Virus record (IMG/VR): IMGVR_UViG_3300034355_001196
Coordinates: 1-64,000 of that record
Source: a virus
Length of the DNA stretch: 64,000 nucleotides
Direction: 5' to 3' (one strand)
Every line of letters starts with the position of its first letter. Positions within the stretch are counted from its first letter, which is position 1. Positions 5,688 through 28,117 of the stretch are shown piece after piece. The notes under the pieces are model-generated. The model was not told the origin of the DNA and did no database searches. It saw only the letters and a list, made by a program, of their open reading frames with translations. A program made the translations under genes and the position numbers.

Positions 5688-6389
5688 TTATAATTCAGCA
5701 TATTCATCTAAATCCTTTTCAATTAGTTCTCGTTGACATGCAATAAAGTCTCTATTACCATTTAAATGTTTATTTAGAATACTAAGAGCTTCTTTACATG
5801 ATTCACTTTCGTCATTTACATCCCCCGTAAATGCATATACATCTGTTAAAGTTGGAATCTTTAAAAATGATAAAATAGGTCCAACATAATTAGGATTTAT
5901 TCTTATTGTTTCTGCATCCAAAATATGTTTATGAATATTTGAAAAAGAAGCATTTACAAATGCCTCTAGTTGTATTTCTCCATTAGGACAATATTTTGGA
6001 AAATTCTCAAAAGATGTAATTTTACGATACTTAAAAAGATGATATGTTATAAAAACATCCCTATAATCTGATTTACATACTAATTTTTCAGGAAAGTTTT
6101 TGAATGATTTTAATTTTTCTAAACGCTCCAAAATCATATATTTTGCATTTCGGATTTTGAATGGGAATTCACCATTAGCATCTAACATTTCATCATAAAT
6201 TATAAGAGTTCCTAACTGACAATCAACTATCCCAGATGCAGATATTTTGAAACCGTGCAAAGAGTTTTTCTTTGGGTCATTCGGTATAAGTTCTTGACTT
6301 GCCCAATCATTTAATAGGTCTCGAATACGTTGAACGTATTCGCTATTTGAAGCCGTGTCTTCTTGTAAGTATTGTTTAAAGCTCTGCAT
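5688..6389 (-). CDS. Packaged-protein paralog A14
   Basis: A 233-residue member and the last gene of the first array. I start it at MQSFKQYLQED, two codons inside a longer frame, because this matches its siblings and gives the standard 14-nt overlap with the preceding gene. The LQE within this start is a possible prohead-protease site. The middle has degenerate leucine-rich units (SFKNFPEKLV, TSFENFPKY, FSNIHKHI). It ends IACQRELIEKDLDEYAEL. Confidence 0.85.
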   Translation of the reverse strand: MQSFKQYLQEDTASNSEYVQRIRDLLNDWASQELIPNDPKKNSLHGFKISASGIVDCQLGTLIIYDEMLDANGEFPFKIRNAKYMILERLEKLKSFKNFPEKLVCKSDYRDVFITYHLFKYRKITSFENFPKYCPNGEIQLEAFVNASFSNIHKHILDAETIRINPNYVGPILSFLKIPTLTDVYAFTGDVNDESESCKEALSILNKHLNGNRDFIACQRELIEKDLDEYAEL

Positions 6390-7050
6390 ATTCATCTAAA
6401 TCCTTTTCAATTAGTTCTCGTTGACAAGCTACAACATTTCTATCACCATCTAAATGTGTTCTGACAATTCGAATGGCCTCATTTAATTTATCGTATTTTG
6501 CTAATCTAATACTATTAGAAGAAAACCAAACTTGAGTTGGATGAGGTATTTGTAATAATCCTAATAACCCTCCATTAAAATACTCCATTTGATAAATGTG
6601 AATCGCATCACATTTTACTAGCTTTTTGATATTTGTAAAAACTGTATCAACTTGAACATTGATAGACAATAAATGACAAACTACTTGAAATGGAAGTAAT
6701 CTATTCAATCCTATATTACAATTAGCCGAAAACTTATGATGATTAATGACATGCGCAAAGTTCATTTTATACTCAGAGCAAACTGCTTCCATAATCTTAC
6801 CATGCAAATCAAACTGAGCTTTTTCAGATTTCAACCAATTACTATCAGGGTCTATAATAACTACAACAAAACCTTCAGTGCTTACATCTTGAAGTGAAAA
6901 CTTAAAGCCTTTCAACACTGGTGAGACTATACCACGAACTTTTGCTGAAGTTATGTCTGTTATAGGATTTCCTGGAAAGTAATAACAACATTCAAGATAA
7001 ACTGAATTCTGAGTTTCACCTTCTTGCAAGTATTGTTTAAAATTCTGCAT
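6376..7050 (-). CDS. Packaged-protein paralog A13
   Basis: A 224-residue protein starting MQNFKQYLQEGE and ending in the family tag. The middle is not repeat-like. It aligns by eye over most of its length with the gene at 14274-14945: LECCYYFP, LKGFKFSL, DPDSNWLKS, MEAVCSE and CNIGLNRLLPFQV each have counterparts there. The two copies are therefore a recent duplicate pair at opposite ends of the array. It overlaps the previous gene by 14 nt. Confidence 0.85.
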   Translation of the reverse strand: MQNFKQYLQEGETQNSVYLECCYYFPGNPITDITSAKVRGIVSPVLKGFKFSLQDVSTEGFVVVIIDPDSNWLKSEKAQFDLHGKIMEAVCSEYKMNFAHVINHHKFSANCNIGLNRLLPFQVVCHLLSINVQVDTVFTNIKKLVKCDAIHIYQMEYFNGGLLGLLQIPHPTQVWFSSNSIRLAKYDKLNEAIRIVRTHLDGDRNVVACQRELIEKDLDEYAEL

Positions 7051-7705
7051 ATTCGTCTAAATCACGTTCAATTAGTTCTCGTTGACAAGCTACAACATTT
7101 TGACGTTCAGGATTCAAATGCTTATTGATAACATACATCCAATGCAATTCATGATAATCTGATGTTGATAAGTTGATTGCTTTACCTTTCTTAGCTAACC
7201 TAATAATGCCTAATGCCTTTCCGGTAACGTTTTCACAATTACGAATATATAAGTTTCTAAAAGAAGATATAATTTTATCAATTCCGGATAATGAAGATTT
7301 ATTTTCTACATTTACATAAACAGTATCATATGAAATTGGAATTGAAAGTTTAGGAACCTCATGTGAAAAGAATAGATTAACATGGTGGTCTTCATGATTT
7401 TCTCGATAGTTAGAAGAATCACCTGCAAATTCATTCAATACGTCTAAAACATTTTCACGATAATTATCAAAAGCATCAACATTTTTATCTTCAATCAATA
7501 ATTTAATAGAAAATGAAATAGTACTAACTAATATAATACTATCAGTTCCAGTCTTTTCATTGATAAGTTTTTTGAACTGTTGCAAATTTGCTTTCATCTT
7601 CTTACATAAGTCAGTCAATCCGCTAAATTCTAATGTAAGCTCTATCATATGATTTTGTTTTAACTTTGGAATAGCTTCGTGTTCAAATAGTTCTTTTACT
7701 TTCAT
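7037..7705 (-). CDS. Packaged-protein paralog A12
   Basis: A 222-residue member beginning MKVKELFEHE, the Alt-like start type. The middle is an alpha/beta domain without leucine-rich units. It resembles the gene at 10278-10913 (SLSGIDKIISSFRNLYIRNCENVTGKALGIIRLAKKGK against SLSGIHKIIKDF, SENITGGVLGLIKLAKHG). The end is VVACQRELIERDLDEYAEF. Start and upstream stop share one base (TAATG). Confidence 0.85.
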   Translation of the reverse strand: MKVKELFEHEAIPKLKQNHMIELTLEFSGLTDLCKKMKANLQQFKKLINEKTGTDSIILVSTISFSIKLLIEDKNVDAFDNYRENVLDVLNEFAGDSSNYRENHEDHHVNLFFSHEVPKLSIPISYDTVYVNVENKSSLSGIDKIISSFRNLYIRNCENVTGKALGIIRLAKKGKAINLSTSDYHELHWMYVINKHLNPERQNVVACQRELIERDLDEYAEF

Positions 7706-8643
7706 TAAAACTCCGCGTACTCGTCTAGGTCGTTTTCAATTAGATCACGTTGGCACGCAATCCTGTTGCGCCCTGCAAATATATGTTTAGTTAGAATTTT
7801 ACCTAAGATAAGATCAACTTCTTGTGGTGGTTTTGTTTGTCGAACACCTTGTTCTAATCCTTTAATTTTCAAAATAGAAAGAACACCACTTTTAATAGTT
7901 GGGTCAAATTGTAACATGATGCCTATTCTTTTTACTAACTTATCTAAATTGTCAAAAGAAGTAATTTTTGCATTACGATAAATTTGTAGATTACCATCAA
8001 TATCAGAAGCAATATGTTCTAATGATGATAAGTTTTTATTATCCCATATAGCTAAATTTGTTAATTTAGATGGACAACCTTCTAAAGATATTAGATTTTC
8101 ATTGTCACTTATCATCAAATGTTCAATTGTTGGCGGACAACCTTTTAGGGAACGAATTGAAGATTTAAGAACATTGAGATAAATTGTATCTTTTGGGAAT
8201 TCAATTTGAGTTAAGTCAGGGCCCATTTCTCCAGATAATATAATTGTTTTATTTTCTTCTTTCTTAGCTAATTTTTTTTCAGCTATGTCTTTCAGCTTTT
8301 TTAAACAGTTGATATAACGAACATATAGATTAGGAACGGGAATAGGCGAATTCATCTTAGTGGCTCTATCAGCATGTGCTGCCTGAGCTCTTATCTGTCC
8401 ATTAGAATAAATCGAATAATCCATAGTTCCATTTTTCAACTTGAATGTTAAAGTTCCGTTTTTTAGTTTTATAGCAGAACTGATATCAAATGTTTTTGAA
8501 AGTATTTCTTTATATTCGTTTGATTGTTTGACTTTATTTAGAGTATCAGCTAAATCAACCGGGTCAATAGGCGGCAAATCTTTAACAGCAGGTATCGAAA
8601 CACCGGCTTCTTTTAGTAATGGAAATAGTTCATTTAGTTTCAT
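7705..8643 (-). CDS. Packaged-protein paralog A11, leucine-rich
   Basis: At 312 residues this is the longest member. It starts MKLNELFPLLKEAG and has the clearest repeats of the first array: SIRSLKGCPPTIEHL, LISLEGCPSKLTNL, LSSLEHIASDIDGNL and ITSFDNL, each about 20 residues, between residues 150 and 245. The N-terminal domain (DLADTLNKVKQSNEYKEI) matches that of the gene at 9355-10281. Ends IACQRDLIENDLDEYAEF. Overlaps its upstream neighbour by one base. Confidence 0.85.
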   Translation of the reverse strand: MKLNELFPLLKEAGVSIPAVKDLPPIDPVDLADTLNKVKQSNEYKEILSKTFDISSAIKLKNGTLTFKLKNGTMDYSIYSNGQIRAQAAHADRATKMNSPIPVPNLYVRYINCLKKLKDIAEKKLAKKEENKTIILSGEMGPDLTQIEFPKDTIYLNVLKSSIRSLKGCPPTIEHLMISDNENLISLEGCPSKLTNLAIWDNKNLSSLEHIASDIDGNLQIYRNAKITSFDNLDKLVKRIGIMLQFDPTIKSGVLSILKIKGLEQGVRQTKPPQEVDLILGKILTKHIFAGRNRIACQRDLIENDLDEYAEF

Positions 8644-9368
8644 TAAAACTCCGCGTAATCGTCTAGATTATTTTCAATTAGTTCTCGTTGGCAGGCAATA
8701 GCATTTTTTTCGTCTGTTTGTAAATGGTTATAGACTATTCCAATTGCTTGGCGAAGTTCATTAGAGTATTTAGCTCTTTCAGTTGCTGGATATGAAATAG
8801 TTCTCAATCCTGGTATCTTTAGCAAGCCTAATATAGAATTAGTCAAAGTATGCGGAACGACAATTTCACCATCACCTTGTCTATTAGGTCTTATTTCTTT
8901 GATGACTTTGTGAATGCCACTCAAAGAAGTAATACCAGTTCCACGAAGTATATATGAAGAAGCTCTTTCAGGAAAATAATCAAGTGATGTGATTTCTGGA
9001 TTGTTGCTAATGCTAAAACGACCACCCACGATTTTAGGACATCCTTTCAAAGAACCTAAACTACAATTTGCTATAAAGAAGTTCCTTTCTATTTGTCCAA
9101 ACTGACATGGCAAATAACGAAGATGAGTTGAACCATTAATACGTGGCAAACATTCTTCATCACCAGATAATAACACAGCCGTAGCATTTACAATACCATA
9201 ATCATACTTTGCATTTTCAAAGTTGCCAGGGTCTAAATCTTCAATGTTATACTTCTTTAGAACTCGATGACCATTTCTAGTAATCCAGTCGATAATATCT
9301 TCTTCCGGCCAAAAGTCGAAATCGTTGTTAGCCTGTTCTTTTAATAAGTATTGTCTAAAACTCTGCAT
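8643..9368 (-). CDS. Packaged-protein paralog A10, leucine-rich
   Basis: A 241-residue protein. The start chosen is MQSFRQYLLKEQ, seven codons inside a longer frame, restoring the 14-nt overlap used by its siblings. The middle carries leucine-rich units (SLGSLKGCPKIVGGRF, EITSLDYFPERASSYI, GITSLSGIHKVI) near residues 105-170 and is most like the gene at 27479-28117 in the other array. The tag is IACQRELIENNLDDYAEF, with Asn and Asp replacing the usual Asp and Glu. Confidence 0.85.
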   Translation of the reverse strand: MQSFRQYLLKEQANNDFDFWPEEDIIDWITRNGHRVLKKYNIEDLDPGNFENAKYDYGIVNATAVLLSGDEECLPRINGSTHLRYLPCQFGQIERNFFIANCSLGSLKGCPKIVGGRFSISNNPEITSLDYFPERASSYILRGTGITSLSGIHKVIKEIRPNRQGDGEIVVPHTLTNSILGLLKIPGLRTISYPATERAKYSNELRQAIGIVYNHLQTDEKNAIACQRELIENNLDDYAEF

Positions 9369-10281
9369 AATCATCCAAGTCGTTTTCAATTAGTTCACGT
9401 TGACATTTGATAGCACTTCGTTCACTAGAGAATAAATGCTTAGAAACAATTTGAGCAACTAAACCAAATTCTCCATCTTCTGTTTTTCTACCATTTATAG
9501 TAAATGCAATTGAAGTACAATCTTTTACTTTGAAAAATGCTAAGACCCCAGTTTTGACTGGCGGTAAAGTAAATCCTTGACACCTCGGAATATGCTTATG
9601 AACGTCAGAGAATGAAGTGATTGGATTACCATACGCTTGAATAAACTGAGCATGCTTTGGAAATCCTTCAAAAGATGTTAGCTTATTATTAGCAGCATTA
9701 AACAATCTACATTGTTCAGGACCACCAACTAAAGGCGAAGTCAGTTCATTGTTGTTACAATAGAAATCCCCACCTACTGAGAAATCCCCCGCCGCATTAA
9801 GTTCAGGTGCTCCTTCTAAGGTTGTAAGATTATTGTAAGAACAATTGAAGTTTGAAATCTTATTTGGATAAATTCTGCCTTTTAGCGTAGTAAGACTAAG
9901 ATTACGCACATCATCTTTAGCATTCTTTAGACGTTTTGCAAACCAATTCACAAAATGGGTATGTATTGTATCTAAACAGTTCAGATACATTTGTAATGAA
10001 CCGTCTGGACCCGCACCATAACCCGCTTTACCCCAAATAGAGGCGTAAGAATTTTTGACTTTGATATCACCTGCATAATTGACAAAGTATTCTCGTGGTT
10101 CTTTTAGATAGGTATCTTTAGTCACTATTTGCAAAGAACCATTCTTTCTTTGTATTTTCGTGGAGTTCAAGTCAAAGTACTTCGAGAAGTCCTTAAACTC
10201 TGGAGTTTGTTCTAATTGGTCAATGACCGCTGAATAGTCTGCACCTTTAGATGCTTCATTTAACAATTCTGATATTTTCAT
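9355..10281 (-). CDS. Packaged-protein paralog A9, leucine-rich
   Basis: A 308-residue member starting MKISELLNEA. It keeps the most canonical phage leucine-rich repeats in the family: NFNCSYNNLTTLEGAP, DFYCNNNELTSPLVGGP, NAANNKLTSFEGFP and GNPITSF between about residues 140 and 225. It may therefore be closest to the ancestral form. Its N-terminal domain pairs with the gene at 7705-8643. Tag IKCQRELIENDLDDYAEF. The overlap with the upstream stop is ATGA. Confidence 0.85.
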   Translation of the reverse strand: MKISELLNEASKGADYSAVIDQLEQTPEFKDFSKYFDLNSTKIQRKNGSLQIVTKDTYLKEPREYFVNYAGDIKVKNSYASIWGKAGYGAGPDGSLQMYLNCLDTIHTHFVNWFAKRLKNAKDDVRNLSLTTLKGRIYPNKISNFNCSYNNLTTLEGAPELNAAGDFSVGGDFYCNNNELTSPLVGGPEQCRLFNAANNKLTSFEGFPKHAQFIQAYGNPITSFSDVHKHIPRCQGFTLPPVKTGVLAFFKVKDCTSIAFTINGRKTEDGEFGLVAQIVSKHLFSSERSAIKCQRELIENDLDDYAEF

Positions 10282-10913
10282 AGTTCTGCGTACTCGTCTA
10301 AATCCTTTTCAATTAGTTTTCGTTGACATGCAATGACATCACCCGAGTTTAAATATTTTAAAACAATGTTAGCCCATTCAGGATTTGGAGTATTGATTTT
10401 TATTACTCCATGTTTTGCTAACTTTATCAAACCCAAAACACCACCTGTAATATTCTCAGAATTATTGATTTCTAAATAACTAAAATCTTTTATTATTTTA
10501 TGAATACCAGATAATGAAGTTTTATTAAGGTTCTGAATAAAGATATTCGGAAACTCAATTGGTATTGGTAATGAAGGAACCTGTTTGTCAAATGTTAAAT
10601 GAACTATATGCGACCCTGAATCTTCACGAATTTCAGTGATATCAAAAAACGCTTTAAGAACAGCATTGACATCATCTATGTAATTCGCAAAATCATTCAC
10701 CTGATGTTCTGGAACTTCAAGGCTAATATCAAATGTACCTTTACCAACTTGAATAATTGAACTCAATCCGGTTTTTTTGTCAATAGCATCAGTTATCTTT
10801 TTAGGATTTTCATTGAGTTTTGTTAAAGTAGTAGTTAGAGCATTATACGACAGCCATAAGTCTATAAAATAATCTTTTCTAACTGAGGTTTCAAATAGTT
10901 CTTTTATTTTCAT
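10278..10913 (-). CDS. Packaged-protein paralog A8
   Basis: At 211 residues this is the shortest of the first array. It begins MKIKELFET and has an alpha/beta middle (YFIDLWLSYNALTTTLTKL, then beta-strand-rich SIIQVGKGTFDISLEV). It ends VIACQRKLIEKDLDEYAEL, with Lys in place of Glu in the tag. Closest sibling is 7037-7705. The TAATG junction with 10913-11569 couples the two genes. Confidence 0.85.
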   Translation of the reverse strand: MKIKELFETSVRKDYFIDLWLSYNALTTTLTKLNENPKKITDAIDKKTGLSSIIQVGKGTFDISLEVPEHQVNDFANYIDDVNAVLKAFFDITEIREDSGSHIVHLTFDKQVPSLPIPIEFPNIFIQNLNKTSLSGIHKIIKDFSYLEINNSENITGGVLGLIKLAKHGVIKINTPNPEWANIVLKYLNSGDVIACQRKLIEKDLDEYAEL

Positions 10914-11569
10914 TAAAATTCCGCGTATTCGTCTAAGTCTTGTTCAATCATTTCACGTTGACATGCAACTATATCTTGATTTTCTGATTTTCTATAACTA
11001 GTAATAATTTTAACCCATTCAACAGTTTTAAACTTATTACCCCAATCTGCATTATTTAGAATGAGTTTGCCTTTGATTTTCAATAACCCTACAACACTAT
11101 CGCTAATCATATTAGCATATTCAATTCTAAATAATTCATCTGCTTTAATAAGTTTATCAACACCTGCTAATGAAAGAGCTGTATTACTATTTGAGTTCAA
11201 ATAGATAACCGGCCATTCAATTGGGCTATTTGGCATATTGTCAATAAAGACAATAGGAAATGATGAACCTTCGTTATAAGGGCTTTTATCGATTTTGTTA
11301 AAGCTTTCGACTACTTCGCGAACTCTTTCTAATTGATGTTCAATATTAGTTTTGTTGAATGGAAGTTTTCCGTTCAAAGTTATTCGTACTTGGTTACTTG
11401 ATGATGGTTTATCGACAAGTTTAACTTTTACGCCAGTAAGATTAGCTTTAATCAAAGCATCTCGAATAGCAATTACTTTTGGTGCAAAATGTGTTTCAAA
11501 CGATAACTTTATTTCAAAAGTATCGGTTCTATTACTTGTTGCTTCATTTAATAATTCTGATATTTTCAT
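10913..11569 (-). CDS. Packaged-protein paralog A7
   Basis: A 218-residue protein with start MKISELLNEA and a non-repeat middle: FEIKLSFETHFAPKVIAIRD, then strands and a helix LERVREVVESFNKI. The conserved second half SLAGVDKLIK..SVVGLLKIKGKL is present. The tag is IVACQREMIEQDLDEYAEF, with Met and Gln substitutions. The start overlaps the upstream TGA by 4 nt. Confidence 0.85.
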   Translation of the reverse strand: MKISELLNEATSNRTDTFEIKLSFETHFAPKVIAIRDALIKANLTGVKVKLVDKPSSSNQVRITLNGKLPFNKTNIEHQLERVREVVESFNKIDKSPYNEGSSFPIVFIDNMPNSPIEWPVIYLNSNSNTALSLAGVDKLIKADELFRIEYANMISDSVVGLLKIKGKLILNNADWGNKFKTVEWVKIITSYRKSENQDIVACQREMIEQDLDEYAEF

Positions 11570-12207
11570 AATTCTGCGTACTCGTCCAGGTCGTTTTCAA
11601 TTAGTTTTCGTTGACATGCAATCCAATCATTGGCTGTTTGATAACTATTTATGATAGATATAGCTTTTAATAAAGTATTATAACCTTCTTTCCATCTATC
11701 AGTTGAAGCAGTAGAAAGTAAAGGAATATTTTTCATCTTCAATACACCTAATAAGTTTGATTGAACTGATACAGGAACATAAATCTTACTGCAACTCTGA
11801 ATATGTTTATGAATATCTTTGAATGAAGTGATAGGATTATCAATCAAATCTAAAGAACCACTTATATTATAAGGAGCACCTTCAAGTGAAGTAATATTAT
11901 TTTTATAACAATTTACAGCACCATGAACCGAGTTTGGAAAGTTTTTGAATGAAACTATTTGTCTATCTTCAATATCAAAATCACCTAATACTACGTCAAG
12001 TTTATATTTTAGTTCATATCCATTTTCAACTTTATCAGCGAAAGCTCCAAATGCCGTATCAGATTGCGATAAGTCTAATTTAGAATTAGCATATAATATG
12101 CCCATTTTATTTAGATTGATAGTACCTTGAGTAAGCATTCTCAATTGCTCTGCTACTTTATATGGTATTTGTTCTTCTTCCTGTTCAAACAATTCTTTTA
12201 TTTTCAT
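11566..12207 (-). CDS. Packaged-protein paralog A6, leucine-rich
   Basis: A 213-residue member beginning MKIKELFEQEEE. Two well-formed leucine-rich units occur near residues 90-135 (NCYKNNITSLEGAPYNISG, LDLIDNPITSFKDIHKHI). The second half has NLLGVLKMKNIPLL, the family's conserved hydrophobic strand. Ends IACQRKLIENDLDEYAEL. The TAATG junction lies upstream. Confidence 0.85.
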   Translation of the reverse strand: MKIKELFEQEEEQIPYKVAEQLRMLTQGTINLNKMGILYANSKLDLSQSDTAFGAFADKVENGYELKYKLDVVLGDFDIEDRQIVSFKNFPNSVHGAVNCYKNNITSLEGAPYNISGSLDLIDNPITSFKDIHKHIQSCSKIYVPVSVQSNLLGVLKMKNIPLLSTASTDRWKEGYNTLLKAISIINSYQTANDWIACQRKLIENDLDEYAEL

Positions 12208-12872
12208 TAAAACTCCGCATACTCGTCTAAGTCATTTTCAATTAGTTTTCGTTGGCACGCAATGGTGTTGCCATTAGGTAAGAATTCATTGAGAATATCA
12301 ATTGCTCTTTCGAAATCGTCAATACTTTCACTTGATATCCAAACAGTTTTAAGGTTTTTGATTTTCAAAAATCCTAATATCGGACTTGGCTTATTCCCAG
12401 AAATATAAATCTTATCAGCTTCTAAGATATGGTTATGAACATTAGCGAATGATAAATTTTGAGCTTCCCATAAATTCAATACTCCTTTGGAATACTTTGG
12501 AATACTTTCTAAAGAAGTAAGCTTAGGGAAATTTACTCCCTCTAATTTTAGAGCATCAATCTTTGAGCTTTTAGGAGTTTCAATATACTCTGGAAAGTTT
12601 TTGAATGAAGAAAGTGCAGACGTATAAACGTGAATACATTTAGCTCGGGTAATCTTGAATGGAAGAGTTCCTTCTGGCGTTAGCATTCTTTCCGTAATTT
12701 GAAATTTTGGCATATTGCATGAAACTGTTCCATCTTTAGCGACTACAAATTTGTCATAGTAATCATGCGGAAAAGTTTGCCAACTTCGCCATTCATCAAT
12801 AATAGCAAGTACTTCATCCTTAGACATTTGTTGATTACTAGATGTTTGTTCAAATAGTTCTTGTATTTTCAT
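12207..12872 (-). CDS. Packaged-protein paralog A5
   Basis: A 221-residue protein starting MKIQELFEQ. The layout SFKNFPEYIET, TSLESIPKYSKG, SFANVHNHI, PILGFLKIKNLK is nearly superimposable on the gene at 14945-15622 (SFKNFPEQIEH, TSLEGCPKYCRG, SYANVHKHI, PMLGFLKIVNLK), marking another duplicate pair. Tag IACQRKLIENDLDEYAEF. Confidence 0.85.
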   Translation of the reverse strand: MKIQELFEQTSSNQQMSKDEVLAIIDEWRSWQTFPHDYYDKFVVAKDGTVSCNMPKFQITERMLTPEGTLPFKITRAKCIHVYTSALSSFKNFPEYIETPKSSKIDALKLEGVNFPKLTSLESIPKYSKGVLNLWEAQNLSFANVHNHILEADKIYISGNKPSPILGFLKIKNLKTVWISSESIDDFERAIDILNEFLPNGNTIACQRKLIENDLDEYAEF

Positions 12873-13564
12873 TAAAACTCCGCGTACTCGTCTAAATCTT
12901 TTTCAATCAATTCGCGTTGACATGCAATGGCATCTCGTTTAGAACTTGCTAAATGTTTATTTAGTATCTGTTGCCACTTATCACCATGGTCTGTAACTGA
13001 ACTCAATCCATTTATCTTTAGAAATCCAAGAATAGGACCTTTATACGGATATGGAAATTTAACACCTTCAACATAATCGATATGTTTATGAACATTTGCA
13101 AAAGATAGTTTCGGAAAATGAGAAAAATCTGCGGAACCATTAATATGTCGAGGCACACCTTCTAATGAATGAATATTAGGCCCTTTCATTGTGCTATTAA
13201 CTCCGAATATGTTCAGCATTGTGCCATTACTATTATTAAGAACTTTATCTGGAAAGTTTTTAAACGTTGTCATTGCATTAACACCATAAACATCAAGTGA
13301 AATACATGATATAAACTTGAATGGAAGCTCTCCGTTCTCAAACATCCATTCATAAAGTTTTAGATTTTCGCTCAAATGCTCTACACCATAACCTCCACCT
13401 TTATATGGAACTATTTTATATTTTCCGAATGGTGGATACCATGAAGAATATGTTGCAGCTTTTTCAGAAGCAATTTTGGTTCGCCATTTATGTATCTTAG
13501 CCATGATAGCAAATTCTTCCGGATGCTTCTTTACTGCTTCATTTAACAACTCTCCAATTTTCAT
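12872..13564 (-). CDS. Packaged-protein paralog A4
   Basis: A 230-residue member with start MKIGELLNEA. The N-terminal third is aromatic-rich (ATYSSWYPPFGKYKIVPYKGGGYG). It is followed by TFKNFPDKV, HSLEGVPRHINGS, LSFANVHKHID and PILGFLKINGL. Ends AIACQRELIEKDLDEYAEF. The ATGA overlap joins it to 13561-14277. Confidence 0.85.
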   Translation of the reverse strand: MKIGELLNEAVKKHPEEFAIMAKIHKWRTKIASEKAATYSSWYPPFGKYKIVPYKGGGYGVEHLSENLKLYEWMFENGELPFKFISCISLDVYGVNAMTTFKNFPDKVLNNSNGTMLNIFGVNSTMKGPNIHSLEGVPRHINGSADFSHFPKLSFANVHKHIDYVEGVKFPYPYKGPILGFLKINGLSSVTDHGDKWQQILNKHLASSKRDAIACQRELIEKDLDEYAEF

Positions 13565-17909: not shown

Positions 17910-17951
17910 TTATATAAGTTCCTTGTTTTCTGGTAATACATGTACTAAATG

Positions 17952-17960: not shown

Positions 17961-18000
17961 TTATTTGGAAAACTAATATTTACTAATAATATAAACAAAA

Positions 18001-18038
18001 AAGGGGAGAATACTTTATTGGTATTCTCCCCCCTTCTA
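18001..18038 (-). terminator. Rho-independent terminator after the tail tube gene
   Basis: On the minus strand, GGGGAGAATAC pairs with GTATTCTCCCC around a short loop, followed by TTTTTTGTTT. It lies 13-50 nt past the tube gene stop. It isolates the tube transcript from the gp54-like gene, which has its own late box. Confidence 0.85.
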
Positions 18039-18050
18039 TGAGTATGAAAC

Positions 18051-19080: not shown

Positions 19081-19086
19081 AAACAC

Positions 19087-20688: not shown

Positions 20689-21425
20689 TAAAACTCCGCA
20701 TATTCGTCTAGGTCTTTTTCGATAAGTTCTCGCTGACATTGTATAATACTAGAACTATTATACTTATTTAGTATTTTTAACACTTCTACTACTTCAGTTA
20801 GAGACGTTCCATTAATTGTCATAATTGAACCCCATGTCAATTTAGCATTACATTTCAACAATGATAACAGCGGTTTTTGTTTGATTAGGTGTAGAGCGGT
20901 GTTATAGAAACGAATTTGTGGAACTGCAAAATGTTTGTGTAAATCTCTAAGCGGTGCTTTCCCAATACTTCCAATTTTTAGTTCTTGTGCAATCGAAACT
21001 TTTCCACAATCAAAACTTTTCAAGTTAGGAGTATAGAGATATAACGAATCTTTGATAACTGGAGTACAATGTTCTAATGTTTCTAATGACGGAACACTTA
21101 TATTCAATTGGTCGCATGCATCAGGAATTCCCCAAAGTGATTTGAAATTTGAACCATCTGCAACATTTATTTCAAACTTCTTAGCAGTTCTGTACTTTAC
21201 CATGAGTGCAGTTTCACCATGACCGTATCCGCCAATGTCGCCATATACCCCATTAGGCGAATAGTCCGACTTAGTGACAGATACAGTTCCGTCTTTATTC
21301 ACTTTCCATCCAGACATATTAGCATAATTTTTCATATAGTACTGAACTTTCTCAGGGTCAGTAATATGCCAAGGGGCAAAATTGGTTGCTAACTTTTCAG
21401 CAAGATAAGATTTAAAATTCTGCAT
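20688..21425 (-). CDS. Packaged-protein paralog B11
   Basis: A 245-residue protein starting MQNFKSYLAEK, followed by the NFAPWHITDPE subgroup motif. The degenerate leucine-rich section includes SLWGIPDACDQLNI and SLETLEHCTPVI. Ends IIQCQRELIEKDLDEYAEF. It overlaps the upstream stop by 14 nt. Confidence 0.85.
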   Translation of the reverse strand: MQNFKSYLAEKLATNFAPWHITDPEKVQYYMKNYANMSGWKVNKDGTVSVTKSDYSPNGVYGDIGGYGHGETALMVKYRTAKKFEINVADGSNFKSLWGIPDACDQLNISVPSLETLEHCTPVIKDSLYLYTPNLKSFDCGKVSIAQELKIGSIGKAPLRDLHKHFAVPQIRFYNTALHLIKQKPLLSLLKCNAKLTWGSIMTINGTSLTEVVEVLKILNKYNSSSIIQCQRELIEKDLDEYAEF

Positions 21426-22056
21426 ATTCGTCTAAGTCACGTTCAATTAGTTCTCGTTGAAAGCCAATAGTATCTTTACTCCCATTATAGTATTTATGTA
21501 AAATGTCATTAACAATTTTAAGGTCGCTAAGTAATTCATCTGGACCATTTATCATGATGCTATCAAAACCTTTTACTTTTAGAAGCGATAGTATTCCAAT
21601 TGATTTAGCCGGTGCTTCAAAACGAATGTCCAATTGAAATGCACTTGAACCTTCTATTAGTTTTTCGATACCTTTAACAGACTCTTGGTTAGTATAGATA
21701 GTAGTCAAATGATTTTGAATGACCATCTTGAAAGCAGGTGGCCAATGACATTCAATATGACTGTAAGCGTCAACAGGTTCAAAGTGGTCAGTAACTATGT
21801 CATGTATATCACCTAAGAAATCAACAGTTTCAAAAAGATGTTGCGGAACATCGTGTATTTTGACAATTATTGAATCAAAAATAGAAGTGAACTCTATTGT
21901 ATTAGAAAGGTTGTATTCTTCCTTGATAAATTTTGTAATTAGGAATACTAGAGTTTTACGTTTGCCGACAGAAATAGGACCAGCAAAGTCAATTTGTACA
22001 TTGACAATTGGTAAGTGTCCAGCACTTTCTAATAAGTATTCTTTAAAACTCTGCAT
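21412..22056 (-). CDS. Packaged-protein paralog B10
   Basis: A 214-residue member starting MQSFKEYLLES. The middle is not repeat-like (VNVQIDFAGPISVGKRKTL, DSIIVKIHDVPQHLF). The second half has SVKGIEKLIEGSS and SIGILSLLKVKGF. The tag is TIGFQRELIERDLDEYAEF, lacking the Cys. Confidence 0.85.
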   Translation of the reverse strand: MQSFKEYLLESAGHLPIVNVQIDFAGPISVGKRKTLVFLITKFIKEEYNLSNTIEFTSIFDSIIVKIHDVPQHLFETVDFLGDIHDIVTDHFEPVDAYSHIECHWPPAFKMVIQNHLTTIYTNQESVKGIEKLIEGSSAFQLDIRFEAPAKSIGILSLLKVKGFDSIMINGPDELLSDLKIVNDILHKYYNGSKDTIGFQRELIERDLDEYAEF

Positions 22057-22837
22057 ATTCGTCCAAGTCGTTTTCTATTAGTTTACGTTGGCATCCAATA
22101 ATATCAGGGTTGTTTGACGCTAAGTATGTATTGACTATTCTAGTTGCTTCAACTAATTCTTCGTTTACTTTAGTTTTATCAGAAAAGTAAAGTTGAATAC
22201 CAAACATATTTCGTGTAGGCTTTTTAATTTTGAATATACTAAGTAATCCTTTTCCAACTAAAGTTTTTGCTGCGGCATTAGACAATGTTATGTTATTTAC
22301 TATTTTGAAATGTTGTCCGATAGTTCTAAACAATTCATAGTCAAATTCGTAGTCAAGCACTAATCTATGACATGTAATTTGACATCCTTGACCCCATTCT
22401 TTCAACTTTAGACAATCGGTCAATATCAATGCCTCTTTAACTTCACATGCAAATCCTTTGAATGAAGTAATTTGTGAAAGTTGTATGTTTAAACTCATTC
22501 CGACTTTATTAGGTCCATATTCTAATGTAGTCAATTTCCTAGTATTGAAATCTTTTATACTAACTCTACCTGGGCAATTGATATTGTTATACTTTACAAG
22601 TAGTCCAACTTCACCATTATCAACAGGTCCGATTTCACGAATAGCGAAGAATTGCTCTCCTCGAACAGAAATACTTCCATTCTTTAGGAATACGAATGTA
22701 GTTGGCAAATATTTATTTCCATAATGTTCAAGATAAAACTCATGAAGTACTTCCTTAGTTGCTTCTGGAGTTGTTGGGTGCCAAGGTGCCAAGTTCGTTT
22801 GCTTAGCTTCAGCAATAAAGTTCTTAAAATTCTGCAT
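22043..22837 (-). CDS. Packaged-protein paralog B9
   Basis: A 264-residue protein beginning MQNFKNFIAEA. Its FIAEA is identical to the cleavage-site region I recall for T4 internal proteins. The NLAPWHPTTPE subgroup motif follows, then LTTLEYGPNKVGM and ITSFKGFACEV. The start sits seven codons inside a longer frame and restores the 14-nt overlap. Tag IIGCQRKLIENDLDEYAEF. Confidence 0.85.
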   Translation of the reverse strand: MQNFKNFIAEAKQTNLAPWHPTTPEATKEVLHEFYLEHYGNKYLPTTFVFLKNGSISVRGEQFFAIREIGPVDNGEVGLLVKYNNINCPGRVSIKDFNTRKLTTLEYGPNKVGMSLNIQLSQITSFKGFACEVKEALILTDCLKLKEWGQGCQITCHRLVLDYEFDYELFRTIGQHFKIVNNITLSNAAAKTLVGKGLLSIFKIKKPTRNMFGIQLYFSDKTKVNEELVEATRIVNTYLASNNPDIIGCQRKLIENDLDEYAEF

Positions 22838-23492
22838 ATTCGTCCAGGTCGTTTTCAATTAGTTCGCGTTGGGCAGCAATAGTGTCATGGGATTTTGCAT
22901 ATTTATTTAGTATTTCAATCCAGTGTTCATTTTTTCCTAATACTGAATGTAATGATTTTATCTTCAACATACTCAACACGTTAGTGACTTCTCCTACTAT
23001 ATGTTCAAACCTGAACACTTGAGTATCAGGGAAATGTTTGTCAAAGTTGCTAAGTGAGATACTTTTATTACGTTTCAAATCAAATACTATGACTGGATAA
23101 TGTATGATAGTATTAGGATTGACCGGACCAAAGAACCATACACTTGGATTGACTTCATCTAGTGTCAATCCACCGCTTAGCTCACGATTAGAAAAATTCG
23201 CTGCTTCAGTCGCTATTTCTTCTAACTCATCTTGTACATAATGTCGATTGCTTAGTTTAATTTCAACTTGTAGATTGTCATCTCTATTGAAACCCCAATC
23301 AATATCTTTCATACCTAAATGACTTTTAAGATCGTTGACAAACTTTTCAACTTCATTATCAAAAGCATCGCGATTTCTATGATTTCCCATAGCTTCGCCA
23401 AAAGTTTCTTTGTTCTCTAGTTCTAAGACAAGCCATGGGAAAACAAATGGAGATTCATTTTCTTTTAGTAAGTATTGTTTAAAGCTCTGCAT
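22824..23492 (-). CDS. Packaged-protein paralog B8
   Basis: A 222-residue member starting MQSFKQYLLKEN. The non-repeat middle includes FPWLVLELENKETFGEAMGN and IDWGFNRDDNLQVEIKLS. The tag is TIAAQRELIENDLDEYAEF, with Ala in place of the Cys. The layout matches the genes at 24128-24832 and 26148-26834. Confidence 0.85.
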   Translation of the reverse strand: MQSFKQYLLKENESPFVFPWLVLELENKETFGEAMGNHRNRDAFDNEVEKFVNDLKSHLGMKDIDWGFNRDDNLQVEIKLSNRHYVQDELEEIATEAANFSNRELSGGLTLDEVNPSVWFFGPVNPNTIIHYPVIVFDLKRNKSISLSNFDKHFPDTQVFRFEHIVGEVTNVLSMLKIKSLHSVLGKNEHWIEILNKYAKSHDTIAAQRELIENDLDEYAEF

Positions 23493-24126
23493 ACTCGTCT
23501 AAATCCTTTATAATAAGTTCGCGTTGGCATTCAATAATATCGTTATTATTTTCAAAATGTCTATGAACAATCTTAAACCATTCTGGTTCATTACTCATTG
23601 CCCATTCAAGATTTTGAAGATTTGTCATTTTCAACAATCCTAATACTTGCCCAGTGACTTTAACCGCGGCACTTACGTATAAAGCCAAATCTTTAGGATT
23701 TATAGCTTTATGAATATCATGTAAAGATACTTCAGCACCACCATTTACTGTAAAGTTAAGAGCCACCTTAGGATGCTCAATTTTAAATGGGGGTATGATA
23801 TTAAAGATACTTACAAACTGTTCTTTTAACTTCAAGGGTTTAGTAATAATATCTTTGTAATAGTTATTTAGCAGACCAAGCAGTTTTTTGTCAAAAGCAC
23901 TAATACCTTCTGTACTACCTTCAGTTGCATTTGTGATTGGTACTTTAAAAGCAAATTCTTTATCTCGGTATTCTATAGAAACTATTCTATTCTCAAATTG
24001 ATTATGTAACAGATTGCCGATTGCATTTTCTATTGTTTCTGAAGTCGAGGGTAATGAAGAATTTGGTAGGTTACCGGGAACCTTACAATAAACATAATAG
24101 GTAATTCTTTGTGCGCCATTTGACAT
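23479..24126 (-). CDS. Packaged-protein paralog B7, start signal lost
   Basis: About 215 residues. The usual start position reads MRSYNMSNGAQ, so the MQSF start sequence is broken after four residues. I favour the inner ATG (MSNGAQRITYYVYCK), which has GGAG 7 nt upstream inside the preceding gene's last codons. This is the only member without a recognisable capsid-targeting start. The tag IIECQRELIIKDLDEYAEL is intact. Confidence 0.75.
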   Translation of the reverse strand: MSNGAQRITYYVYCKVPGNLPNSSLPSTSETIENAIGNLLHNQFENRIVSIEYRDKEFAFKVPITNATEGSTEGISAFDKKLLGLLNNYYKDIITKPLKLKEQFVSIFNIIPPFKIEHPKVALNFTVNGGAEVSLHDIHKAINPKDLALYVSAAVKVTGQVLGLLKMTNLQNLEWAMSNEPEWFKIVHRHFENNNDIIECQRELIIKDLDEYAEL

Positions 24127-24127
24127 G

Positions 24128-24832
24128 TTATAACTCCGCATACTCGTCTAAATCTTTTTCAATTAGTTCACGTTGACACGCGATGAAGTTTTTATCGGCG
24201 TCGAAATGTTTCATTACAATTTCATACCAAGGAGGTATCTTTTGAGAACGTGGCCAAATTGTAATATGCTTCAATTCTTTTAACTTTAATAATCCTAATA
24301 CATTAGAATTTATTTTATTAATCGCATTATAGAAAATAATTTTTTTGCAATGAGGCATTTTCTTATGAATATCTTTTAGAGATATTGAAGGAGAATGATC
24401 TAAGTAAAATTCGATATATGGCCAATCAGTATAAACATTTGGACCAAGTTGTTCTCTAAAAGATATGTATGTATTGTCTTCATCACGGTGAAATATATCG
24501 GTTCCTAAAAGCTCATCAACTATTTCAGTGCATTTTTTACGTATTTCTCTAACATGATTAGCATGTAAGTTAGTCTCATCTAGTTCATATGTAATAAGCA
24601 TTTCATCAGCTCCGAAAAAAGCTTCAACTTCATTATGTCCAAAGTAATCTTGAAGATGAGATGTTATCCATTTTTCGAAAGTAATATGTGGATTATCGTC
24701 ACCATCACCGTCAGTAATCCATTGCTCAACCTCAGACGTAAAGATACCAGTGCTAATATCAATGTACGCGTTAGTGGGAAGTTCATGATTAATAATTTCT
24801 TCTTTCAATAAGAATTCTTTAAAACTCTGCAT
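24128..24832 (-). CDS. Packaged-protein paralog B6
   Basis: A 234-residue protein starting MQSFKEFLLKEE. The middle is acidic with no leucine-rich units (VEQWITDGDGDDNPHITFEKW, VEAFFGADEMLITYELDE). The second half has SISLKDIHKKMPHCK and SNVLGLLKLKELK. Ends IACQRELIEKDLDEYAEL. A 14-nt overlap lies upstream. Confidence 0.85.
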   Translation of the reverse strand: MQSFKEFLLKEEIINHELPTNAYIDISTGIFTSEVEQWITDGDGDDNPHITFEKWITSHLQDYFGHNEVEAFFGADEMLITYELDETNLHANHVREIRKKCTEIVDELLGTDIFHRDEDNTYISFREQLGPNVYTDWPYIEFYLDHSPSISLKDIHKKMPHCKKIIFYNAINKINSNVLGLLKLKELKHITIWPRSQKIPPWYEIVMKHFDADKNFIACQRELIEKDLDEYAEL

Positions 24833-25496
24833 ATTCGTCTAAATCCTTTTCGATAAGTTCACGTTGACAAGCTACAATATCTTTTGACTCTGACCTTAAG
24901 TATTTGCTAATAATTACTTGAACATCTCGGTGTTCGCTTGAACATTGGCCAAAAAACAAAGCTTGAAGTTTTGGAATCTTTAATGCCCATAAGACACCAC
25001 CTTTCCATTGATTAGAAATTGTTAAAGTGCCATCTATGTATTCAAAATGTTTGTGAGCATTAGACCAATCAAGATTATGACACAAGCCTAATCCAAGGTT
25101 TCCATCAATTCGTTTTGAAATGCCATCTAACTTTGTTAGAAGTGGATGCGCACAGGTAGTCACGATAGCAGTTCTTCCATACATCTTATCGCCGGTGAAT
25201 GATACATCTGGTGGAAATCCTTCAAATGATGATAATCTATTGGCACCCAATTCAATCTGACCACACTTTATCATTTTGAAAGTTAGCTTACCGGCATCAG
25301 GTCCATCTTTAGGAATAAGAGTATTCTTTAAGTTCCAACGTCCATCAATTGATACCATACTATTAACAACGCTAAATTTCCCAAAGCTGACTGGCATCGG
25401 ATGTGATGCATACTTACCTTTACGAATCGCATTTATTTCGAGTCGTACAGCTTTATCTTCGGCAGTTTCTTCAGTTAGTAGTTCAGAGATTTTCAT
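24819..25496 (-). CDS. Packaged-protein paralog B5, leucine-rich
   Basis: A 225-residue member with the Alt-like start MKISELLTEE, unusual in this array. Repeats: LSSFEGFPPDVSF, LTKLDGISKRIDGN and DWSNAHKHFE, then GVLWALKIPKLQ. Ends IVACQRELIEKDLDEYAEF. An ATGA overlap joins it to 25493-26161. Confidence 0.85.
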   Translation of the reverse strand: MKISELLTEETAEDKAVRLEINAIRKGKYASHPMPVSFGKFSVVNSMVSIDGRWNLKNTLIPKDGPDAGKLTFKMIKCGQIELGANRLSSFEGFPPDVSFTGDKMYGRTAIVTTCAHPLLTKLDGISKRIDGNLGLGLCHNLDWSNAHKHFEYIDGTLTISNQWKGGVLWALKIPKLQALFFGQCSSEHRDVQVIISKYLRSESKDIVACQRELIEKDLDEYAEF

Positions 25497-26161
25497 AGTT
25501 CTGCGTATTCGTCCAGGTCGTTTTCAATAAGTTCTCGTTGGCATTCAATAAAATTTCCAAGTGGTAAATATTTGTTGATAATATTACAAGCATTTCTTAA
25601 ATTCACTTTAATTTTTACTTCATCTTGAGATTTACCAGAATGGTGGTCAATAAATCCTACATGCTTCAAGTCTCTAATTTTTAGTAATGATAATAAGGGC
25701 CCTTCATATAAAGCACTAGTTATTAACCATCCATCAAGTCTTTTGACATACTTATTGAAATTTGTAAAATCAAAGTTTCTAATTCTTGATGTATCAAGTC
25801 TATTACTAATATCTGATGGAAATCCATCAAGAGATTGTATTTGGTTACCTGTAGAAAATTCAATACCACCTTCGCCAACTATTTCAGGAAAGTTCTTGAA
25901 CGTCTTAGGAACATTCCATATTACTAATCGAAGAGCTTCTGCAATTGGAAATAGTAATTCATCATTGTCATCAAACATGCAATGCTCAATAATTAAAGGT
26001 TTCTTCAAATAGATTTTTCCATTCTTAACTGCATGTCGTGGAAATTTATTCGGAAACCTACATCTGCCAAGTTCTCCACTCTTATACTTTCCAATCATTT
26101 CACGGATTTGTTTATCATCCGGATTAGAAGCTTCAGATAAGTATTGCTTAAAGCTCTGCAT
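25493..26161 (-). CDS. Packaged-protein paralog B4
   Basis: A 222-residue protein. The start MQSFKQYLSEA lies seven codons inside a longer frame and gives the 14-nt overlap. The layout TFKNFPEIV, QSLDGFPSDISN, FTNFNKYVKRL, PLLSLLKIRDLK is close to the terminase-side leucine-rich members. Tag FIECQRELIENDLDEYAEL. Confidence 0.85.
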   Translation of the reverse strand: MQSFKQYLSEASNPDDKQIREMIGKYKSGELGRCRFPNKFPRHAVKNGKIYLKKPLIIEHCMFDDNDELLFPIAEALRLVIWNVPKTFKNFPEIVGEGGIEFSTGNQIQSLDGFPSDISNRLDTSRIRNFDFTNFNKYVKRLDGWLITSALYEGPLLSLLKIRDLKHVGFIDHHSGKSQDEVKIKVNLRNACNIINKYLPLGNFIECQRELIENDLDEYAEL

Positions 26162-26834
26162 AATCGTCCAAGTCAAGTTCAATTAGTTTTCGTTGGCAAG
26201 CTATAAAGTCTTTTCCTGTATCGAAATATTCCTTTACAATGTTAAACCATTGAACTTTAGCTGAAGCATATAATGTTATAGCATTCTTTATCTTTAGTAA
26301 TCCTAATACATTTTGTGTTATATTAGAAGAGTCACCCATAGAAATCTGTTTAGCAGATAATATGACTTTATGTATATCTTGTAAGGATTTGACACTTTCT
26401 TCAATGATAACGTGATTGACTTCAACTGTAGTCGTTTTATCAAAGTTATCTTCTAAGATAACTACTGGCATTTCAGAAGATACTGGTTCAAAGTCATTCT
26501 TATAAATTTCATACTTATCTGCTAACTTGATAAACTTTGTTGCTATAGTATCAAGTTGCGGTTTAGTATAATGAGTATGGGGTTCAAGAACTAAATGAAA
26601 CGTTACTCTATCAACTCCAAAATGATAGACTTCTTTTACTTTAGGAAGATTTGCTTTTTCACAGAGTTCAGATAATTCACGAATAATTATATTGTTTCGC
26701 TGAAAAAGCTGTTCTCTATTATACTTTGGAGAAATGTAATCATCTCCACGTACTTTTATTTGAAGAAGCAATGGGCGAATTGGTTCTACCCAATGATCAT
26801 TGCCTTCTGCTAAGTATTCTTTAAAACTCCGCAT
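26148..26834 (-). CDS. Packaged-protein paralog B3
   Basis: A 228-residue member starting MRSFKEYLAEG. The non-repeat middle is VEPIRPLLLQIKVRGDDYISP and VDRVTFHLVLEPHTHYTKPQL. The second half is SLQDIHKVILSAKQI and QNVLGLLKIKNAI. The tag is IACQRKLIELDLDDYAEL. Confidence 0.85.
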   Translation of the reverse strand: MRSFKEYLAEGNDHWVEPIRPLLLQIKVRGDDYISPKYNREQLFQRNNIIIRELSELCEKANLPKVKEVYHFGVDRVTFHLVLEPHTHYTKPQLDTIATKFIKLADKYEIYKNDFEPVSSEMPVVILEDNFDKTTTVEVNHVIIEESVKSLQDIHKVILSAKQISMGDSSNITQNVLGLLKIKNAITLYASAKVQWFNIVKEYFDTGKDFIACQRKLIELDLDDYAEL

Positions 26835-27492
26835 ATTCGTCTAAGTCTTTTTCAATGAGTTCTCGTTGGCAAGCAATAGCATTTCTATTGCCTTGCAAAT
26901 AAGGATTGACAATTGAATACCATCGTGGGCTATTACTTCCAAAAGGACCTGCGCCAATAATATTGACTGGCATTTTTAGTTTGAGCAAACTAAGTATTCC
27001 CCCTTTTATCATATTTGCTTTATAAAGTCTGAACTCATCACACTTTAGAATAACTTTATCTAAGTTAGAAATCGATTGACCTTCTTCACACCAATATGAA
27101 ATGTTACCATCATTTATACTTAGCTTAAAATTTGGAAATCCAAAACAAGATAACTCAGCTGTAGAAAATTTTACTTGTAATTCAGGTGAAATCTTAGTCG
27201 TAAAAAACTCATTCACAGTTGAACTAATAGTATCACGTAACTTTTGAATAGTTTCTGCTTGACACTGGATTTGTTTTGTTATCTTAAACTTCAAATCAAT
27301 TCCATAAGTAGTACTGAGATAACTTGAAATATCATAACCTTTCTTTTTTGCTACTTTTATTATCAAATTTTTAAGCTCAGATTCTAAAGAATATGGAGAA
27401 TATTCAATTTTGACTTTAGTTTCAACAAACATCCCAAGTTGAATATTTGAATCAGTTTCTACTTCTTGTAAGTATTCTTTAAAACTCTGCAT
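26821..27492 (-). CDS. Packaged-protein paralog B2
   Basis: A 223-residue protein. The chosen start is MQSFKEYLQEVE, 22 codons inside a longer frame. The middle is helical and strand-like (VKIEYSPYSLESELKNLIIKV, written in the sequence near residues 22-42). The second half has SISNLDKVILKCDEF and GGILSLLKLKMPV. Ends AIACQRELIEKDLDEYAEF. Confidence 0.85.
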   Translation of the reverse strand: MQSFKEYLQEVETDSNIQLGMFVETKVKIEYSPYSLESELKNLIIKVAKKKGYDISSYLSTTYGIDLKFKITKQIQCQAETIQKLRDTISSTVNEFFTTKISPELQVKFSTAELSCFGFPNFKLSINDGNISYWCEEGQSISNLDKVILKCDEFRLYKANMIKGGILSLLKLKMPVNIIGAGPFGSNSPRWYSIVNPYLQGNRNAIACQRELIEKDLDEYAEF

Positions 27493-28117
27493 ATTCGTCC
27501 AAGTCGCTTTCAATAAGTTTACGTTGACAAGCAATAGCATCATGTCGATTTGCTTCACAATATTTAGTTACAATTTTGCATGCTTCCTTTAGTTCGTCAG
27601 AAGCAGTTGATAATGGCGAAACCTTCATTAGGTTTTGTATCTTAACAAAGCTTAGTAACCCTTTAGTTTCTTCAGGTATTGAAATTGAATAGACTTTTTT
27701 GACCACTTTTTCAATACCTTTGAAATTGATAATACCTGTATTATGCAGATAGATATCTTCAGCTTCTTCAGGTAAGTATTCAACTGAAGTAATGTTCTTA
27801 CCCTTTACATTGAACTGTCCACCCACAAATTTTGGTACCCCTTTCAAGTCAATCATATCATTTGCTAATACATGAACATCTTTAGTACATTCTCTAAAGT
27901 TGATTGGCAATACACACTGCTTCCCTTTGTACCAGACCAAATCACTTCCAGAAATTGATAAACTCCAATGACATGTGATACTCATATCTTTATGAATTTC
28001 ATAATTCCCCTGACCAATGCCATGAGCTTTCATCCAAGCATTGATTTGAGACTTCTTAGTATAGAAAGTCGATTCGCGTTCTTCTTTTAGTAAGTATTGT
28101 TTGAAAGTATTAGACAC
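27479..28117 (-). CDS. Packaged-protein paralog B1, leucine-rich
   Basis: A 212-residue protein, first of the second array. It starts MSNTFKQYLLKEE, a variant start whose first codons overlap the end of the LysM-like gene by 8 nt. Repeats: MIDLKGVPKFVGGQF, NITSVEYLPEEAEDIYL and IINFKGIEKVV. Closest to 8643-9368 in the first array. Tag AIACQRKLIESDLDEYAEF. Confidence 0.85.
   Translation of the reverse strand: MSNTFKQYLLKEERESTFYTKKSQINAWMKAHGIGQGNYEIHKDMSITCHWSLSISGSDLVWYKGKQCVLPINFRECTKDVHVLANDMIDLKGVPKFVGGQFNVKGKNITSVEYLPEEAEDIYLHNTGIINFKGIEKVVKKVYSISIPEETKGLLSFVKIQNLMKVSPLSTASDELKEACKIVTKYCEANRHDAIACQRKLIESDLDEYAEF

Follow-up and report, generated by a model that had tools for sequence, protein, structure and literature searches.

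Overlapping gene cassettes with capsid-targeting-like leaders and a genome-specific C-terminal signature in a large T4-like phage

Leader-directed packaging of proteins into a phage head and large families of head paralogs have both been described. In T4 (Tequatrovirus), Ip1, Ip2 and Ip3 each block a different GmrSD restriction enzyme and have only their leader in common (PMC12373910); in this leader residues 4 and 7 serve for targeting and residues 8 and 10 for processing, and the prohead protease gp21 cleaves after L/I-x-E (PMC9026906). Phage SPN3US has a head paralog family B of 20 members (PMC5694885), Bacillus phage G carries ~35 copies of a zinc ribbon of unknown role (PMC7824862), and DarA/Hdf of phage P1 are head-associated proteins for defence against restriction (PMC12810830); here and below, these reports are drawn on in part. 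We analyzed a family of 29 genes in a 64,000-base stretch of viral DNA (positions 1 to 64,000 of the IMG/VR record IMGVR_UViG_3300034355_001196, hereafter the window), most of which stand in two arrays of cassettes and whose products have a T4-like leader at the start and a common domain at the end. From their sequences and by analogy with T4, the members are likely to be head cargo that is packaged by means of the leader, trimmed by gp21 and ejected into the bacterium.

The likeness to T4 Ip1/Ip2/Ip3 lies in a ~10-residue N-terminal leader in the same register, an L/I-x-E site, the presence of an S77/gp21 gene and differing mature parts behind a common leader; the differences are that here tens of paralogs occur, with a common C-terminal domain, a phage-specific signature and overlapping cassettes in the head/tail module. 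Judged by sequence, the members resemble the T4 internal proteins (IPs) in mode and are not placed in the IP protein families, and a profile of their C-terminal domain found no match in T4 or XacN1. SPN3US family B and the phiKZ-type inner head paralogs (PF12699, family A) are similar as large head-protein families of giant phages, but the consulted part of PMC5694885 describes no T4-type leader or common C-terminal signature for family B, which we set apart by this description. Phage G likewise has many copies of one domain in a jumbo phage, but its zinc ribbon was suggested to be a transcription factor or DNA-binding, with no leader described in the part of PMC7824862 used; DarA/Hdf, from the description in the corresponding part of PMC12810830, are not seen as a paralog array. 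An earlier note on this DNA held that no known system has so many packaged paralogs with a shared tag. As to number this calls for caution, given SPN3US and phage G, while the leader and tag together are undescribed in either, as far as those partial sources go. We found no leader-bearing family with a lineage-specific C-terminal domain in overlapping cassette arrays in the literature searched, which covered few subscription papers, and it is this combination that appears to be new.

All 29 members are open reading frames (ORFs) on the minus strand, at the places where the earlier note had put genes with a common start and a common end, except that six starts had to be moved inward (to 6389, 9368, 20688, 22837, 26161 and 27492). 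Every member ends in the C-terminal tag or a slight variant of it, and a DNA pattern for the tag (DLDEYAE, up to three mismatches) matched 28 times in the window versus 0.22 expected from shuffles. The claimed resemblance of the start to a T4 capsid-targeting sequence was confirmed: [L/I]-x-E ends at residue 8-12 in 27 of the 29 members, the exceptions being m21 (23479-24141) and m28 (31105-31803), and MQSFKQYLAE stands in the same register as MKTYQEFIAE, with which T4 ipII and ipIII (translated from NC_000866) begin, so that both have aromatic residues at positions 4 and 7, L/I at 8 and E at 10. The MKIxELLxE and MKIxELFE types follow a similar pattern but are one or two residues shorter. When the motif was allowed anywhere in residues 5-16, it occurred in 27/29 members versus 29/182 other genes of at least 90 residues (Fisher p ~2e-16, which overstates independence because the members are paralogs). 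One regular expression for a leader-like start picked out 28 of 192 genes in G001, a 118,937-base record 99.98-100% identical to the whole window, versus 6 of 572 in XacN1 (where one protein occurs in two copies and so counts twice), 8 of 517 in RAS14 and 9 of 398 in PA5oct. Where orthologs differ in spacing by one or two residues, as for instance those of m05, m14, m17 and m18 do, the L-x-E is kept. From other phages we picked 29 members whose start is clear, and the site lies at residues 8-16 in 27 of them; this pick is without partial or duplicate genes, two core-type fusions and L133:7827 and L144:2159, which have no site, and also without L133:9474 and L120 c1, though the site is present in these two.

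The region common to the C-termini is a domain of ~88 residues rather than 18. What had been taken for a short end tag is the ordered end of this domain, the last residues of which are partly set by the overlap with the next gene. In AlphaFold2 models of m07 and m14 (mean predicted local distance difference test, pLDDT, 87.6 and 91.3), leader residues 1-10 are poorly ordered (pLDDT 44 and 56), and the final 20 residues form an ordered, mostly helical stretch (block means 86-98), so that neither model shows the tag as an unfolded tail. We also considered the tag as a second gp21 site, since the window members have L-I-E and L-D-E there. This idea is unsupported in the sister phages described below, because D replaces E at -10 and -5 in 13/13 of the members used from them; it is not excluded, because L-I-E recurs in the C-terminal end in a third phage and in most members of a 197-kb record, and because T4 Alt is cleaved at its C-terminus (PMC9026906).

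Sister phages were found via gp21 and then with a DNA pattern for CQEELIDN. Their arrays hold orthologs of window members at similar places, in the order head closure, terminase small subunit and array, with a member beside the terminase large subunit and the m29 ortholog between sheath and stabilizer. For 15 of the 18 sister members compared, one window member clearly stood out as the best match (alignment score >150). We then tabulated the end positions of 31 window-phage members (the 29 minus m29, plus three beside gp21) and 13 sister members, forming 12 ortholog pairs; the table is without the m29, L120 and L122 pairs, without one partial gene and without duplicates or partials from L133, L137, L134 and L141. 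Position -14 is R in 31/31 window-phage members and E in 13/13 sister members, position -10 is E in 30/31 and D in 13/13, and position -6 is D in 31/31 and K in 13/13. Orthologs disagree at these three positions in all 12 pairs, showing that the signature follows the genome and not the gene.

The 25 junctions within arrays take only three forms: a 14-base overlap in 13, a 1-base overlap (TAATG) in seven and a 4-base overlap (ATGA) in five. The 14-base overlap TATGCAGAGTTTTAA reads YAEF and a stop in one frame, and MQSF followed by K one frame on, so that in these 13 junctions the YAE[F/L]* end and the next M[Q/R][S/N][F/Y] start are the same bases read twice. This explains the MQ/MR, S/N and F/Y variation of the start and much of the F/L variation of the end. 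The Tyr codon at the end is TAT at 13/13 of the 14-base junctions versus 2/12 elsewhere (p ~2e-5), although TAT is the commoner Tyr codon in the rest of the member genes (180 vs 50); it seems that TAC at the other junctions avoids an extra ATG. We also counted overlaps for 535 same-strand neighbours outside the family, from G001, most of G002 and XacN1, and found 14 bases in three, 4 in 32 and 1 in 27. All three overlap lengths (1, 4 and 14 bases) recur in the sister lineage. The third phage has 4-base overlaps, the 197-kb record has both 4- and 14-base ones, and in a 360-kb record most are of 4 bases.

Cassettes differ as whole units between close strains. In two sister contigs 97.6-98.0% identical, one whole cassette differs between the terminase small subunit and the next member, and the site carries a repeat of the upstream gene's end and the leader start; further on, an m09-type gene in one faces an m04-type gene in the other, and the match stops ~20 bases into the next leader. 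The ratio of nonsynonymous to synonymous substitution (dN/dS) between strains is 0.075-0.146 for m12, m11 and m05, 0.133 for c1 of contig L120 and 0.61 for m29; except for m29, the members are within the range of seven structural genes (0.04-0.35). These low values indicate that the proteins are under constraint and that cassettes are the main source of variety.

Both arrays stand within the terminase/neck/tail module and interrupt it. Array 1 is flanked upstream by a terminase small subunit-like gene (15622-16095, a weak PHROG match, E 5e-5) and a head closure gene (16061-16636) and downstream by the terminase large subunit (4083-5642), all on the minus strand; tail tube-like genes (16641-18644, minus) lie between the arrays, with array 2 upstream of them. 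Of the single members, m28 adjoins a head-tail adaptor Ad2-like gene (29594-31108, plus), and m29 lies between a sheath stabilizer (37739-38491, plus) and the tail sheath (39899-41863, plus). An S77/gp21 protease was found in G001 (E 5.9e-25; 54% identical to that of XacN1) together with gp23 (PF07068, E 3.6e-96) and gp20 (PF07230, E 1.2e-89). The search gave a protease in 3/8 records, most of the eight being short fragments, and none in G000, the 70-kb fragment (70,310 bases) holding the window. In G001 (contig L025), portal and S77/gp21 are followed in turn by a small protein starting MKPEKSMKELFE, three tagged members, two more small proteins (one with L-F-E near its start), an ORF, a gene in scaffold position without a Pfam match, and the major capsid gene. 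By the major capsid protein, the closest named relatives are XacN1 (55%) and the Stenotrophomonas phages RAS14 and CM1 (57% over 81%). A T4 late promoter pattern, TATAAATA, matched 8 times versus 7.06 expected, and is uninformative as a marker of late expression.

A wider scan matched 72 loci, a figure that includes copies belonging to the window phage itself. In the third phage (terminase 53% and gp21 61% identical) there are at least 19 member places, provided that four contigs from one sample belong to the same phage (13 in G010 plus an overlapping fragment, and two each in G011, G012 and G013); its ends are mostly like FACQEELIEAGFEDFAQL, and it has one member between portal and gp21 and another after gp21. 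In a search of 16 whole records, each chosen because the wider scan had matched it, 40 member places were found in the 360-kb record and 34 in the 197-kb record. An S77 protease was present in 3/9 records searched, both of these included. The ends again have a form of their own, for example ECKAELIEKGLSEYAKL (197-kb record) and CQxELIDAGLEEYAKL (360-kb record), and vary more than those of the window do; the arrays of the 197-kb record again flank stabilizer, head-closure, tube and terminase genes.

Taken together, the leader sequence, the gp21-type protease gene and the gene position argue strongly for head packaging, as the earlier note had proposed when it described an injected arsenal with an end tag, of which the short-tag part is wrong in detail. 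The leader-bearing enzymes within arrays, the prohead-core-like N-termini that replace the leader in two third-phage proteins, the high member counts of the 360-kb and 197-kb records and the cassette differences between close strains also count in favour of the cargo reading. By analogy with T4 (PMC9026906, PMC12373910, in the parts consulted), the leader would bind the prohead core, the S77/gp21-type protease would cut after L/I-x-E, and the mature protein would stay with the DNA and be ejected into the bacterium. This mature protein would consist of a variable N-terminal domain, a leucine-rich repeat (LRR) solenoid or an alpha/beta fold, on the constant C-terminal domain. Host proteins would be the probable ligands of the variable domains, with defence or takeover targets the likeliest among them. 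From the T4 example it is plausible that the members are injected and act against defences, and, as Ip1-Ip3 each block a different GmrSD, dozens of members could answer a very diverse defence (PMC12373910, in part). The genes would act as interchangeable cassettes whose ends and starts overlap in a few fixed ways, with strains gaining, losing or swapping single cassettes at or near a junction. Related giant phages appear to carry 30-40 candidates each, compared with the few restriction-blunting proteins injected by T4; if the reading holds, they form a source of unknown counter-defence proteins that could be found by leader plus C-terminal signature, and the evolution of an injected arsenal would be traceable strain by strain.

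Several observations weigh against this picture. Two of the 29 members have no cleavage site, and in the most distant phages, with a permissive choice of start, the leader site was seen in 26/40, 20/34, 9/11, 4/4 and 1/2 members. The members' isoelectric points (pI) of 4.9-8.8 are not uniformly basic, unlike those of the T4 IPs as described in the consulted part of PMC9026906. The largest array of the 360-kb record (~280-306 kb) lies away from its gp21 (194.8 kb). No host target of the members was found, and strongly diversifying selection was not seen in the pairs tested, which speaks against a point-by-point arms race.

Two other roles can be considered for the members. They may, like T4 gp67/gp68, belong to the prohead core as scaffold fillers, or form an inner body; they would then be packaged and processed, but serve head size or DNA organisation and not act on the host. 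This would fit the three members between gp21 and the scaffold-position gene, the high member number per genome, and two third-phage members (in L143 and L144) in which a prohead-core-like N-terminus replaces the leader (E 9e-6 and 1.5e-5 among 746 ORFs). With that prohead-core model T4 gp67 reaches no better than E 0.33, so the gp67 link rests on proteins of XacN1, RAS14 and L125 beside portal or gp21. A filler would hardly be expected to differ by whole-cassette copies between 98%-identical strains, to have modelled folds that are LRR-like and alpha/beta instead of repeated, or to be accompanied within arrays by enzymes with the same kind of leader, and we consider the core role unlikely. 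Alternatively, the members may be cytoplasmic late proteins (LRR decoys, assembly chaperones or superinfection factors) whose likeness to the leader is incidental to a translation-coupling junction, since the first four residues are set by the upstream end in 13/25 junctions and many distant-phage members have no site. However, residues 5-10, which contain the cleavage motif, are outside the overlap and yet kept, m27, m29 and m14 have a leader without an upstream member, and the L-x-E survives the ortholog spacing shifts; such an incidental likeness seems to us improbable.

For the C-terminal domain, we propose that it probably contacts one common partner, because almost every paralog within a phage has the same key end residues, and these change from phage to phage; what, if anything, reads the phage-specific signature is the question this raises. 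The main alternative is that the uniform end arises by gene conversion or cassette exchange at junctions only, without a signature function. In favour of this, c1 of contig L120 (gp21 98% identical) has 14 identical N-terminal residues and a middle 92% identical, but only 41% identity in its last 17 residues; over its last ~80 bases the DNA identity collapses, and other genes follow downstream. Different cassettes also match each other at 72-94% over stretches of 46-124 bases at the gene end. On the other hand, the diversity of synonymous codons in the end comes close to that predicted from codon usage (0.40 vs 0.45, m29 with its shifted end included), so recent homogenisation of DNA alone does not explain the uniform end. 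An orthology signal expected just upstream of the signature was not borne out (at -17 orthologs agree in 50%, and paralogs of the two genomes in 51% and 31%; at -16, C prevails in all sets) and does not help against exchange. Exchange without a signature function is a serious possibility, if somewhat short of an even chance, and a common partner and exchange may both act. More speculatively, and less likely than not, these phages might share a polymorphic capsid effector system of T4-like jumbo phages, with dozens of exchangeable cassettes each comprising a removable leader, a variable recognition domain and a lineage-private C-terminal code read by one partner, in which cassettes captured by recombination at or beside the overlap adopt the resident code.

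The variable middles fall into an LRR class of 17 members and a second class of 12, an assignment based on alignment and one AlphaFold2 model per class (two of 29 members modelled); the grouping relies on alignment because BLAST at E<1e-3 leaves 13 components. In the earlier description of middles ranging from LRRs to unrelated folds, "unrelated" is too strong because all members have the ~88-residue domain, and alignment places them in two classes. The m14 model is LRR-like, and that of m07 has a ferredoxin-like N-terminal part. LRR chains fill the structure comparison list of m14 (best Z 7.8, root-mean-square deviation 5.3, 165 aligned residues; IpaH3 Z 7.0). In a second look (VIA), no chain reached Z 8 for either model, and Z <8 may mean a common arrangement. 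Bacterial LRR proteins (IpaH3, YopM, internalins), chains of which are listed for m14, may be alike in this fold as a presumed binding surface; Z <8 indicates a common fold at most, no sequence relation was found and the delivery route is another. Among the 10 of 29 members scanned, nothing exceeded the Pfam cut-offs (the best LRR_4 scores were 15.9 and 10.7 bits vs a curated 27), and the sole PHROGs match was phrog_21719 of unknown function (m06, E 7.7e-6; m04, E 1e-4). In BFVD, A0A8D4 entries match both models.

A consensus of the C-terminal domain had no match at E<=10 in 50,697 phage records. Weak scores of the C-terminal profile in SCTP-2, PA5oct, RAS14, RaK2 and LR756501 (E 0.002-0.23) were not trusted, and matches in the Vibrio phages SRILMA and TDDLMA (down to E 3e-10, m06) come from LTSLEGAP-type repeats, the SRILMA protein inspected having no leader or tag. 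A pattern scan of bacterial genome contigs gave 131 stretches, none of which was confirmed.

The window phage has at least 32 members, the number in G001, and perhaps 36. A further record, G002 (113,509 bases), has 26.3 kb in common with G001 at 99.9-100%, capsid genes included, and adds two members; four contigs (G005, G006, G007 and G009) have one further member pair in common, do not overlap G001 or G002, and come from samples two of which (3300035188, 3300044974) also contain window-phage contigs. The total of 36 is only possible, because two members are linked through G002, which parts from G001 after the common stretch, and two through co-occurrence in samples. The parting falls at a ~290-base repeat (window 3798-4080; G002 37161-37451 and 88112-88268), and may be either a real rearrangement or an assembly joint.

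Some genes near the members deserve mention. Near the major capsid gene of G001, L025:16438-17202 encodes 254 residues with a leader-like start, MKVRELFLTE, and a HELTH motif, which we take to be typical of zinc peptidases; it has no Pfam match at 0.01 and is a candidate packaged protease by sequence. A second, short S77-type protease (L035:1432-1854, G002:74880-75221; E 1.6e-8) has neighbours that we presume to be TerD/TerC relatives. In sister array 2, L133:8617-9477 encodes a RimK-type ATP-grasp domain (PF08443, E 5e-22) behind the leader MKLIDFITE. In an array of the third phage, L150:5952-6518 follows immediately on two LRR members, overlapping by 4 bases, and encodes a protein kinase domain (phrog_15752, E 2e-15) behind the leader MKVHELFEE. 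Endonuclease-like genes, recognized by eye from an AHHI.PKC motif, lie near sister arrays or the m29 ortholog (L131:1-237, L133:5450-6577, L137:6809-7744) and could be what drives the exchange of cassettes.

The members all lie on the minus strand. Those of the LRR class in array 1 are m01 (5688-6389, starting MQSFKQYLQE), m04 (7705-8643), m05 (8643-9368), m06 (9355-10281), m09 (11566-12207), m10 (12207-12872), m11 (12872-13564), m12 (13561-14277) and m14 (14945-15622; first gene of the array, model me0c0ec3469cc), and those of the second class are m02 (6376-7050), m03 (7037-7705), m07 (10278-10913; model m74ec6abab376), m08 (10913-11569) and m13 (14274-14945). In array 2, the LRR class comprises m15 (19293-20042, the last gene), m17 (20688-21425), m19 (22043-22837), m23 (24819-25496), m24 (25493-26161) and m27 (27479-28117), which is the first gene and has a GTG start, a FKQYLLKE leader and no upstream overlap; the second class comprises m16 (20029-20688), m18 (21412-22056), m20 (22824-23492), m21, m22 (24128-24832), m25 (26148-26834) and m26 (26821-27492). 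Both single genes, m28 and m29 (38498-39340), are of the LRR class. Member m21 is a natural double exception, lacking L-x-E in the leader and having LII for LIE in the tag; its leader core and the E of LIE are both gone, as if it were decaying, and its 14-base overlap is kept. Behind the leader, m15, m17, m19 and m29 have in common a short motif of approximately N-[LF]-A-P-W-[QH] or N-L-K-P-W, which recurs as THYPWQ in the L018 pair.

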